Source: an uncultured Bdellovibrionales bacterium (GTDB lineage Bacteria > Bdellovibrionota > Bdellovibrionia > Bdellovibrionales > UBA1609). Taken from it: a DNA stretch of 50,050 nt. Made by a program: the position numbers and the translations under genes. Below the pieces are notes generated by a model, which was not told where the DNA came from, ran no database searches, and saw only the letters and a program-made list of their open reading frames with translations. The first letter of the stretch is position 1. Every line of letters begins with the position of its first letter. Positions 46,630 through 50,050 of this stretch are shown here, one piece after another. The stretch is taken from the NCBI GenBank assembly GCA_903833275.1, contig CAILEP010000002.1:1-50050 (forward strand), read 5' to 3'.

Positions 46630-47322
46630 TTATCTAAGCTGACAATAGCCGGGCGGTATGTAGCAAGTTCTCTGATACCCCGCGCCCCCGCAATCATAAA
46701 GCGAATTGTAGGCTGCCTCATCCACACCCGGGGCCGTCGCCATGTAAGGCATCATGAATTCGTCGTAGGCCGTACATTGATACCAACCGTACGGAATTTC
46801 GAGCGCCCAAACAAATGCCGGAAATAATAGACCAGCCGACCACCAGAAGGGGTGAAAATTATGACGCCAAGACCAACCGTGGTGAAAACCGGGGCGCGGT
46901 CCGCCGCTGTGATAGCCCGGATGCCCGTAATGTGGACCGTGTCCATAGCCACCGCCAGGTCTGCCACTGCCTGGAGGATATCCACCACCAGGTCTACCAC
47001 CGCCCGGAGGATGTCCGCCACCAGGGCGTCCACCACCTGGAGGATGTCCGCCTCCGGGGCGTCCGCCACCCGGAGGATGTCCGCCGCCAGGTCTACCACC
47101 TCCGGGGCGTCCGCCACCTGGCCGTGGTGGTCGTGGCGCAACCATTTCGGTTTCCGAAGTCACACTTGTGTCTTTCAGATTTTCAAAACTCATATTCTCT
47201 TCACCGAATTGAAGAAAATCGCCATTTTCGTTTTCAAATATTTGCGAAGCAGTCGATTCTTCTGCCGCCGCCGGAAAGCCAAAGGACATTACTGCCGCAA
47301 CGAGCAAATAAGAAATTTTCAT
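46630..47322 (-). CDS. exported Gly/Pro/His-rich repeat protein
   Basis: This protein of 230 residues has a signal peptide (MKISYLLVAAVMSFGFPAAAEES start, cut near residue 20), an acidic segment, and then several RPGGG and RPGGGHPPGGG-type repeats (about 74-130), followed by HGPHYGHPG and a C-terminal region with five cysteines (QCTAYDE, LYDCGG, RTCYIPPGYC). The His and Gly content suggests metal binding or structural use, but no family is recognised. GGTGGG lies 5 nt before ATG 47322; the upstream open frame to 47439 is disregarded. Confidence 0.75.
   Translation of the reverse strand: MKISYLLVAAVMSFGFPAAAEESTASQIFENENGDFLQFGEENMSFENLKDTSVTSETEMVAPRPPRPGGGRPGGGRPGGGHPPGGGRPGGGHPPGGGRPGGGHPPGGGRPGGGYPPGSGRPGGGYGHGPHYGHPGYHSGGPRPGFHHGWSWRHNFHPFWWSAGLLFPAFVWALEIPYGWYQCTAYDEFMMPYMATAPGVDEAAYNSLYDCGGAGYQRTCYIPPGYCQLR
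46950..47132. repeat. tandem repeat array coding for RPGGGHPPGGG units
   Basis: About 33-bp degenerate direct repeats (core on the plus strand CCACCAGGTCTACCACC with variants) fill this stretch of the exported repeat protein gene. Units differ at synonymous positions, and a shorter RPGGG unit appears at one end. Expansion or loss in steps of 33 bp would keep the frame. Confidence 0.75.
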
Positions 47323-47589
47323 AAAAACCCACCTTTCAGATTTAAACAAATAAATCTGTTTTAGTTTCAAATACCAACACGCTCCAATAGCAATTCTAAT
47401 GCCATGGCTTCGAATATAAGTTTTGAGTGAAACACCCAATCAACTCGACATTGCATGAGCTGGCCGACTGCGGCCGCTTCGTTAGACTTACTTAAAATTA
47501 CAGCAATGACAATTTGGCCACACGCGTGGGCCATTTGATCCCAAACTAGTCCTTTAAAGCGTTTGAGGGGCCATAAACTAAAACTTCAC

Positions 47590-47668
47590 AAAAGGTACGC
47601 CGTAACTTTTTTCCTCGAATTTTTCGCGCACCGGGCAAAATGTGGAAAAAAGTTACGGCGTACCTTTT
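47590..47668. repeat. 79-bp palindromic element, copy 1
   Basis: The arms 47590-47614 and 47644-47668 are perfect 25-bp inverted repeats (core AAGGTACGCCGTAACTTT), around a 29-bp centre TCGAATTTTTCGCGCACCGG with the remainder CAAAATGT-like. The right arm overlaps the end of the LysR gene and contains its stop codon. The same element recurs at 49162-49246. Confidence 0.85.
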
Positions 47669-48561
47669 TTCAAGTTCGTGGTGCAAAGCTCGCTTAACCA
47701 TTTGAACATGCTTTGAGAGATGCGATCACTTTTGACGGTTAGATAAACCGGTTGAGTGACGTTTCTAAGTGACGCAATCTCGAGCTTTATAAGCTGCCCT
47801 GATTCAATCAACGGCCGCGCGACGATCTCGGGCACAAAACCAAGATGATCCGTTCGGCGAATAATTTCGACAGCACTGGTGGCGGTGGTGGTTTCGTATC
47901 CACGAATTCGCTTATCAAGGGTAACCGGAAAGTTGTCGTCGCCATATGAGATCCCATCGTTACTCCAATAAACCGGGTAGACAAACGGAAACTTCACGAC
48001 ATTCTTCATCGTCACATGATCGAGGCAAGCATGATTTTTACGGCAACACAGTATCCATGAGAGCTCGCCGACTTTCACCGAGGTCCAAGTCTTTGGCCAA
48101 TCCATTTCGCGCAGATGCAGACAAATCTGAAAACCATTTCGAAGGGCAACGCTGAGAAAAAGGTCAGGCGGCAAATCTAATAGACGCAATTTTAACTCTG
48201 GGTGCCGTTTGGTAAAATTCGAAAACAGGCCAGGAAGAAACTGAGTCGAGAAAAAAGAAGTTGTCGCGAAACCCAGAATTGGCTTTTCTTGGTTTTTCAC
48301 AAAACTGGATTGAAAAGCCTCTTGCTTGGAGCGAATCTCGTTAAACAGGGGCAGAATTTCTCGAGCCTTTGTAGTGATTTTGATACCAAAGGGCGAGCGC
48401 TCTACGAGCTTAAATCCGACTTTATTTTCGAGAGAATTAAGAATCTTTGAGACCTGGCCGGGCTGAATGTTTCGTTGCCGCGCTAGCTCTCGCACTGAAT
48501 GAGTGCGCAATAGATCTAGAAACACATTGATCTCGCGAATTTTAATATCTTCCAAGTCCAT
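47653..48561 (-). CDS. LysR family transcriptional regulator
   Basis: This protein of about 302 residues has the LysR winged helix (INVFLDLLRTHSVRELA then QPGQVSKILNSLENKVG and KLVERSPFGIKITTKA), and a substrate-binding domain. The ATG at 48561 follows GGGGAG by 10 nt. Its last residues GTP and TAA stop come from a palindromic repeat element. It is divergent from the gene at 48711, so it probably regulates that gene and itself; the inducer is unknown. Confidence 0.9.
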   Translation of the reverse strand: MDLEDIKIREINVFLDLLRTHSVRELARQRNIQPGQVSKILNSLENKVGFKLVERSPFGIKITTKAREILPLFNEIRSKQEAFQSSFVKNQEKPILGFATTSFFSTQFLPGLFSNFTKRHPELKLRLLDLPPDLFLSVALRNGFQICLHLREMDWPKTWTSVKVGELSWILCCRKNHACLDHVTMKNVVKFPFVYPVYWSNDGISYGDDNFPVTLDKRIRGYETTTATSAVEIIRRTDHLGFVPEIVARPLIESGQLIKLEIASLRNVTQPVYLTVKSDRISQSMFKWLSELCTTNLKKGTP

Positions 48562-48596
48562 TTTTATGTTACTCCCCGCTAGGTGTTTATAGTTTA

Positions 48597-48610
48597 GAAA
48601 CACGTGTTTC
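48597..48610. promoter_or_regulatory. perfect palindrome in the lysR divergent promoter
   Basis: GAAACACGTGTTTC is a perfect 14-bp palindrome 36 bp before the LysR ATG. Its half GAAACA also appears in the inverted repeat at 48672-48691, suggesting one regulator binds both. Confidence 0.5.
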
Positions 48611-48671
48611 GCTTATAGTAATTGATTGCTGCATTGGTCAATAGTTAACGTAGCGAGTGTGAGCTAATAAC

Positions 48672-48691
48672 TGTTTCTACTCAAAGAAACA
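48672..48691. promoter_or_regulatory. inverted repeat TGTTTC-N8-GAAACA
   Basis: TGTTTC (48672-48677) and GAAACA (48686-48691) form an inverted repeat 20 bp before the start of the secreted-repeat protein gene at 48711. The half-sites are those of the palindrome at 48597-48610, in opposite orientation. Confidence 0.45.
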
Positions 48692-48710
48692 CAAACAAAA
48701 AAGGGGATAT

Positions 48711-49157
48711 ATGAAAGCACTAACAACACTCGCCGCCACACTGGCGATAACCACACTTGCGGCGGTCGCTTCAGCCGACTCGTCGACCGCTACAAGCGCC
48801 ACGACCACCACAGAGACACCGGTATTGACGCTGACCCGCGAAGTGAAAAACGATGAGAAAGAAACGCTTTTGGCTGACTCGTTCAGCAAGACTCTGTACG
48901 TTTTTGACGTCGACCAAAACTCGGGCACCTCGAAGTGCACAGGCGATTGTGCCGAGGTTTGGCCGCCGTACATTTTGACCCCCGGCGAAGCCGCCGGGTT
49001 AAAAGCCCCGCTCGGCTCGGTGGCACGCTCGAATAAAAAACTGCAACTCACCTACAGCGGCCGCCCGGTTTACACCTATATCTTTGATCGCTCAGCAGGC
49101 GACGATCACGGCGACGGCGTCGGCGGAGTTTGGCACTATTTAGAATTGAAAAAGTAA
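48711..49157 (+). CDS. exported protein with PF03640-type secreted repeat
   Basis: This 148-residue protein has a signal peptide (cut near VASADS) and two copies of the Lipoprotein_15 repeat: ADSFSKTLYVFDVDQNSGTS then CTGDCAEVWPPYI, and SGRPVYTYIFDRSAGDDHGDGVGGVWHYL. The repeat has the Y-x-[FWY]-x-x-D pattern and is found in exported proteins of unknown function. GGGG lies just before the ATG. It is divergent to the LysR gene and probably under its control. Confidence 0.85.
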   Translation: MKALTTLAATLAITTLAAVASADSSTATSATTTTETPVLTLTREVKNDEKETLLADSFSKTLYVFDVDQNSGTSKCTGDCAEVWPPYILTPGEAAGLKAPLGSVARSNKKLQLTYSGRPVYTYIFDRSAGDDHGDGVGGVWHYLELKK

Positions 49158-49161
49158 ACAT

Positions 49162-49246
49162 GCTAAAAGGTACGCCGTAACTTTTTTCCTCGAATTATTC
49201 GCGCACCGGACAAAATGTGGAAAAAAGTTACGGCGTACCTTTTAGC
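49162..49246. repeat. 85-bp palindromic element, copy 2
   Basis: The arms 49162-49189 and 49219-49246 are perfect 28-bp inverted repeats with the same core AAGGTACGCCGTAACTTT as copy 1, and a 29-bp centre differing from copy 1 at only two positions. It sits between convergent genes, 4 bp after the stop of the secreted-repeat protein gene, and its right arm supplies the end of the BPL_N gene. Confidence 0.88.
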
Positions 49247-49977
49247 GACCTCTCGACCATGTCGACGGCGAGATCGAAGTCGGGGCCGTCTTGATCGATG
49301 ACTCCGGCTTTTGACTTCCAAGCCGCTGAGGCTTCGGGGTGTGCGCCGCTAACGACAACGTGCCCTTTGCCAAACATGACTTCAATCGTAGCTGGCGCCC
49401 CATCGGCCGCAAAGCTCGCGAGAACGTGCACTTCAGGGTGCTCTTTGTTGACGTAAAACGAACCGCCACCGTTAAAAAACACGTGCCGTCGCTTGCCGCC
49501 CCAATCAATCCACGTCATATCGCCATGGCCATGATTGTTGTCGAGCGGATAATCATAAGTGCCGATCGGGATTATGCCCAATCCGGCGATGGTCTCGGGG
49601 TTATCGACCGTCTTATCGGCCAAAAACGCACCTGCGCAAAAACCGACATAGCCGCCGCCGTTTTTAACAAATTCGCGAATCGCCTTTAGCCCTTTTGCGC
49701 CGAGCGCCTGGGCCGCCTCAATGGCATCGCCCCCTGGTTGCATCCAAACTTTGGCATTTTTAAATAATGCGGGCTTGATATCTGCTGGAGTCACATACCG
49801 AATCTTAAACCCCATACTCGCAGCGATCTCTGCTGAAGCCGGCGCCGAACCGGCGCCCGGGCCAGAGTAAACCAAAACAACGCCATCACGCGCAGAACCC
49901 GAACCCGTCTCGCAACGAGCGCCCACCGCCACCAAAGAAACCAAAATCGCTAAAAAATATTTCATGCTTAGAATCAT
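49228..49977 (-). CDS. exported BPL_N-domain protein (glutamine-amidotransferase-like)
   Basis: This protein of about 249 residues has a signal peptide starting near MKYFLAILVSLVAVGA and the BPL_N fold: VLVYSGPGAG at the start, MQPGGDAIEA, and the nucleophile-elbow-like GGGYVGFCAGAFLA with Cys. It then has FNGGGSFYV and VVVSGAHPEAS. This domain resembles the N-terminal part of eukaryotic biotin-protein ligases and class I amidotransferases; function in bacteria is unknown. ATG 49977 has GGCGAG 8 nt before it; ATG 49965 is the alternative. Its end KGTP and TAA come from the palindromic element. Confidence 0.84.
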   Translation of the reverse strand: MILSMKYFLAILVSLVAVGARCETGSGSARDGVVLVYSGPGAGSAPASAEIAASMGFKIRYVTPADIKPALFKNAKVWMQPGGDAIEAAQALGAKGLKAIREFVKNGGGYVGFCAGAFLADKTVDNPETIAGLGIIPIGTYDYPLDNNHGHGDMTWIDWGGKRRHVFFNGGGSFYVNKEHPEVHVLASFAADGAPATIEVMFGKGHVVVSGAHPEASAAWKSKAGVIDQDGPDFDLAVDMVERSLKGTP

Positions 49978-50003: not shown

Positions 50004-50050
50004 AAAAAAGGTACGCCGTCACTTTTTTCCACCACCCGGGCGAGGTGGTG
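50004..50050. repeat. palindromic element, copy 3 (variant, cut by window end)
   Basis: AAAAAAGGTACGCCGTCACT and the T-run that follows (50004-50030) match the left arm of copies 1 and 2 with one base change (GTCAC for GTAAC). The centre differs: CCACC-CGGGCGA-GGTGG forms its own hairpin. The right arm lies beyond the window. Confidence 0.6.

Follow-up and report, generated by a model that had tools for sequence, protein, structure and literature searches.

The closest described relatives of the repeats reported here are the GTAG-tagged REPs and BIMEs (PMC3733652, PMC6006769). These are palindromes of 20–40 nt that occur singly or as inverted dimers, lie within about 20 bp of the 3' ends of convergent or codirectional genes, and flank a Y1 HUH transposase, each such RAYT having its own REP. 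The canonical tag is GT[AG]G (Quentin 2018, PMC6006769), and GTAG-tagged REPs near gene ends are already known to supply stop codons (Di Nocera 2013, PMC3733652). TnpA-REP cuts single-stranded REP at CT and requires GTAG (PMC8266576), and in E. coli, REPs that lie no more than 15 nt from a stop codon were reported to stall ribosomes (PMC12306157). The REPINs of Pseudomonas consist of two inverted REPs and a spacer that are copied as a unit, with singlets beside the doublets (Bertels and Rainey 2011, PMC3116915). CGTC-tagged repeats and the Rickettsia palindromic elements are likewise palindromes that add residues to proteins (PMC3733652).

The present repeats lie in a window of 50,050 nt from an uncultured Bdellovibrionales bacterium, whose draft assembly (3.08 Mb, here G000) is fragmented into 35 contigs. 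The window is one whole contig ending inside a REP copy (50006–50050), 20 nt past the third REP in what appears to be a spacer, so that the repeats probably fragment the assembly. The initial annotation held that two palindromic copies share an identical repeat and end two unrelated genes alike, and both statements hold. Four exact occurrences of the word GGTACGCCGTAA make up two inverted pairs, one at 47594+/47664− and one at 49169+/49239−, and a fifth occurrence, with one mismatch, is at 50010; shuffles gave 0.17 matches on average and never reached five. The paired arms are 94–100% complementary and 29 nt apart. The LysR and BPL_N genes, which belong to different Pfam families, finish with NLKKGTP and RSLKGTP, their stops lying at 47653 and 49228, each within a right-hand arm (Table 1). 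The LysR start was placed at ATG 48561, while the longest frame (47653..48603) opens with GTG 48603. Between the copies, the Lipoprotein_15 gene has its own TAA 7 nt ahead of copy 2. The spacers of copies 1 and 2 differ by only two mismatches, and the identity is bounded exactly by AAAAGG and CCTTTT, as is characteristic when a unit is copied and its flanks are not. Elsewhere in the window, a minus-strand ORF (46630–47439) encodes a secreted-looking protein with Gly/Pro/His-rich repeats.

Table 1. Repeats and adjoining genes in the window, with the basis of each assignment.
Feature	Position	Strand	Basis
REPIN copy 1, left REP AAAAGGTACGCCGTAACTTTTTTCC, 25 nt	47590..47614	+	arm of inverted repeat I1
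REPIN copy 1, spacer, 29 nt	47615..47643	.	pairwise alignment of both copies
REPIN copy 1, right REP, inverted	47644..47668	-	sequence, inverted repeat
LysR gene end AAA GGT ACG CCG TAA (K-G-T-P-stop), REP-derived	47653..47667	-	
LysR-type regulator gene, REP-supplied stop	47653..48561	-	PF03466 + PF00126
Secreted Lipoprotein_15 repeat gene	48711..49157	+	PF03640
REPIN copy 2, left REP	49165..49189	+	inverted repeat I3, 100% complementary
REPIN copy 2, spacer, 29 nt	49190..49218	.	pairwise alignment
REPIN copy 2, right REP	49219..49243	-	sequence, inverted repeat
BPL_N gene end AAA GGT ACG CCG TAA (K-G-T-P-stop), REP-derived	49228..49242	-	
BPL_N-domain gene, REP-supplied stop	49228..49977	-	PF09825
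Third REP, variant GCCGTCAC	50006..50030	+	sequence match

Across G000, matches to the core with up to three mismatches numbered 41 forward and 39 reverse (reversed control, 0). Because the core is nearly palindromic, many forward and reverse matches are one site seen twice, which leaves 48 distinct oriented arms in about 40 places. The arms occur singly or as inverted pairs with a gap of a few to about 45 nt; half-copies are common, and a few sites are perfectly palindromic, of the type GGAAAAAAGGTACGSCGTACCTTTTTTCC. The arms, whose ends are AAAAGGTAC and TTTTTTCC, are nearly invariant, and the spacers are unrelated in every copy read except window copies 1 and 2. The two inverted REPs around a spacer and the singlets beside doublets recall the Pseudomonas REPINs, but there are about 48 arms here and hundreds there, the spacers here are nearly all unrelated, and the sequence and the phylum are different. 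The CGTC tag of the CGTC-tagged REP superfamily is absent. The dinucleotide CT precedes the REP in 12 of the 48 arms, while it makes up 5% of dinucleotides in the background; this is suggestive of a cleavage site, the enrichment being partly confounded by stop codons. A minor second dialect of this genome, AAAAGGTACGGCATTACTTTT, is mostly single (L061:1832, L073:1586/3957/6400, L142:3037).

The initial annotation had also tied the repeats to gene ends, and their placement is indeed far from indifferent to them. Genes were called with a simple hexamer-trained ORF scorer, and an arm was counted when a gene entered it and stopped within −16 to +10 nt. This was the case for 31 of the 48 arms, where 1.0% would be expected at random (binomial p 7e-50), and only two of the 48 arms lie inside genes, compared with 85% of random sites. 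By the same gene calls, about one third of the arms are without an adjacent gene end. Many copies sit between convergent genes. In Bdellovibrio bacteriovorus kdesi, 16 of 38 arms are at gene ends against 1.2% expected. Two other positions were observed in G000: a REP in frame, in its stop-free direction, inside a histidine ammonia-lyase-like gene (..KRKKVTAYLLGAKEG..; C21:10577, L067:3078-3098), and a single REP that abuts the likely ATG of a Clp-ATPase-like gene (MLNPRLET; C23:13880, L070:3382-3402) and thus stands at a gene start.

How a protein ends depends on the phase in which its gene enters the element. In one frame, a T that precedes the element joins the initial AA to form TAA at the junction; this stop, at −2, is found in seven genes. 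In a second frame, the gene reads K-G-T-P and stops at a TAA inside the REP; this stop, at −16, is found in ten genes, which end KGTP or KGTA. The remaining stops lie at −1 to 7 nt. The third frame reads through the element and is rare. The statement that an arm yields G-T-P and a stop is therefore correct for one frame of three, while another frame gives the TAA at the junction instead. Similarly, the symmetry said to let the element end frames on either strand does exist, although the element is often used on one side only. The ten proteins whose stop codon is read from the REP are unrelated: the LysR regulator, the BPL_N protein, a DSP/PTP-like phosphatase, an Mpl-type Mur ligase, an M23 peptidase, a DUF3307 protein, a Fer2_BFD protein, a PfkB kinase and two that were not run through Pfam, one resembling a hybrid histidine kinase and one without assignment. 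By settling at gene ends, the copies thus give at least ten unrelated proteins their stop codon and identical last residues. In contrast to the GTAG-tagged REPs, the stop here is TAA and occurs in two phases, of which one falls far inside the REP and brings the constant tail KGTP. The CGTC-tagged and Rickettsia elements lie inside ORFs and carry CGTC, whereas the elements here provide C-terminal residues and a stop, only two of the 48 arms being intragenic by the gene calls used.

The proposal that the original 3' ends were replaced by a portable stop is supported by related genes without the element, none of which has a natural GTP tail. A BPL_N paralogue in the same genome (C15:42372-43100) ends DMVRKALPK, compared with DMVERSLKGTP in the window. 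PfkB ends VVSFAQP and VVSFASPKS in two congeners, but VVSLKGTP in G000, and Mpl, which ends TVLKGTP in G000, ends EML, RLSQ and RLK in G002, G005 and G003, respectively. Among the LysR homologues, the end was readable in five, and all five lack GTP there. At one convergent gene pair that holds a palindromic copy in G000 (L076), the element is absent in the sister species G001. Such comparisons between species indicate that the REPIN is probably mobile. The sister species has a related dialect, AAAAGGTACGCCGTAACCTTACCCCC, which forms KGTP ends on three genes, mpl among them; another of its REPs, AAAAGGTGAC, supplies a TGA stop. The mpl genes of both species thus have KGTP in the same position, each time from the species' own dialect; either one old insertion with a change of dialect or two insertions may account for this. 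The G001 mpl repeat had been considered a decayed G000 copy, but this was dropped since further G001 copies show an intact G001 dialect; selective retention after decay was withdrawn on the same ground.

What the initial annotation, otherwise mostly right, did not recognise is that the element is a RAYT-linked REPIN. A cognate RAYT gene (C18:30393-31013) carries the arms of the window repeat on both sides, identical in 30/30 bases, with a REPIN on its upstream side and one lone REP on its downstream side. Its product of 215 aa from the ATG has the HUH motif NHFHL and the motif YKYVYRNP. It was recovered only by tblastn with a B. bacteriovorus RAYT; Pfam did not detect it, and against NF047646 it reached an E value of 1.7e-16 but 60 bits, below the NCBIfam cut-off of 80. 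The Y1 genes that PF01797 finds in G000 have no adjacent arms of the window dialect. A second G000 RAYT (L311, C28:63541-64349) has its own REP, TTTAATACCCGGCCCGTTTTCTGG, with a different head and 25 matches genome-wide.

The same arrangement recurs across the Bdellovibrionota. Flanking inverted repeats were found at 35 of 43 RAYT loci, and at none with shuffled flanks. GGTRN, mostly GTAC or GTGC, stands near the outer end at 33 loci by automatic tag calls, a few of which are misplaced (e.g., L250, L259). Most of the repeats at flanked loci have the head AAAAGGTRC, and their dialects are specific to the genome. Of 27 Y1 proteins placed in a tree, 14 make up a clade with full support, and 13 of these have flanking arms, one of the 13, from G000, having an unrelated repeat; none of the other 13 proteins has such arms. 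The repeat-free Y1-domain clade comprises L078, L081-L084, L235, L237, L242, L248, L251, L252, L256 and L258. The dialects differ between the genomes examined and follow the pattern AAAAGGTAC-N6-ACTTTT, such as CTGCTT and GGACTT in kdesi, or the pattern AAAAGGTGC in others, and inverted copies of such dialects flank Y1 transposase genes in these genomes. An exact 23-mer search over GTDB gave no match, and a degenerate core gave 19 hits over 84,980 genomes, all in Bdellovibrionota. Compared with the GTAG-tagged REPs, the outer end is here mostly AAAAGGTRC (GTAC or GTGC; GTAC in G000), with a clear GTAG at L307 and L308 only. The RAYT arms at these two loci (in G043 and G048) have AAGGTAGGCC, which contains the canonical GTAG, and possibly connect the GTRC lineage with the GTAG one. 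In kdesi, REPINs at L130:2551-2728 and L131:2702-2838 enclose a palindrome that is related and resembles a terminator (GCAAAACGGCCC...GGGCCGTTTT). The kdesi spacer (GCGTTAG) could be read as attC-like, but this was set aside, as the arms flank RAYTs.

Since arms of the matching dialect flank RAYT genes, here and across the clade, the repeats belong to a RAYT-REP system. They are very probably REPINs, inverted pairs or halves of a species-specific REP, and as such a non-autonomous mobile element, probably spread by the RAYT of the genome. By analogy with TnpA-REP in vitro, the RAYT would nick single-stranded REP hairpins and paste copies elsewhere. Selection would purge intragenic insertions, so that the surviving copies sit at last codons, where the element would take the place of the old end and stop. 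The weakest step of this scheme is the last, in which the paired RNA would fold into a stable hairpin and so might terminate or shield the transcripts of the two neighbouring genes.

A first rival explanation is that the repeat is a favoured bidirectional terminator, not mobile, which selection or gene conversion keeps similar at convergent gene ends. Its 3'-end position, often between convergent genes, and its succession of A-tract, stem and T-tract would suit such a role, as would a perfect palindrome about 45 nt behind a PfkB orthologue in another family. Paired arms fold strongly as RNA, at −41 to −43 kcal/mol, but a single arm reaches only about −2 kcal/mol, so that singles alone are unlikely to be strong terminators. 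As DNA, the single G000 arm is a weak hairpin; its 8-pair stem with one mismatch gives −3.5 kcal/mol one way and −1.8 the other, the latter not better than shuffles. A consensus terminator scan, with a loop limit of 8 nt, found none at either window copy, and no Rfam family reached its threshold, the only matches being weak hairpin ones to families of microRNAs and plastids. Genes also run into the element in two frames and gain KGTP, which would not be expected of a terminator that evolved in place, one unit was copied together with its spacer, and the arms flank RAYT genes dialect by dialect. This explanation is improbable, and a terminator role was possibly acquired after insertion; that the REPIN pair acts as a bidirectional terminator or as a 3' shield of the mRNA is speculative.

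In Neisseria, the DNA uptake sequence is also a short word that stands at gene ends in inverted pairs. Were the repeats such a signal, with inverted pairs doubling as terminators and dialects varying by species, then pairs, singles, species dialects and gene-end position would all fit. Uptake words number hundreds to thousands, but only about 50 copies occur here in 3 Mb; with far fewer copies, longer arms (25 to 38 nt) and a transposase link, this reading is very improbable. A MITE of an ordinary DDE insertion sequence, suggested by a short, non-coding element with terminal inverted repeats, is just as hard to credit, given an interior that is not conserved, common half-copies, no flanking direct repeats noticed in the copies read, and Y1/RAYT as the transposase between the arms.

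With the RAYT-spread REPIN as the preferred reading, the kind of element is itself known; what is new is the family, its mostly GTRC tag replacing GTRG, its TAA stops in two phases and its KGTP tails. No papers on REPs or RAYTs of Bdellovibrio were found in a search of mostly open-access literature, and a repeat family with the GTRC signature seems not to have been described before. It is conceivable, if rather doubtful, that these GTRC-tagged REPs serve the Bdellovibrionota as portable gene ends, the stop and KGTP being permanent and possibly functional 3' ends, that of mpl included. In one genome, a mobile palindrome rewrites the C-termini and stops of many genes, and the phase of entry sets the tail. 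With the family comes a further REP/RAYT lineage, whose recognition tag has changed, and since each RAYT is paired with its own REP dialect, the choice of tag and cleavage site by RAYTs becomes testable by comparison. For work on the Bdellovibrionota, shared KGTP ends and 25-nt repeats should not count as homology, and contigs may break at these repeats.
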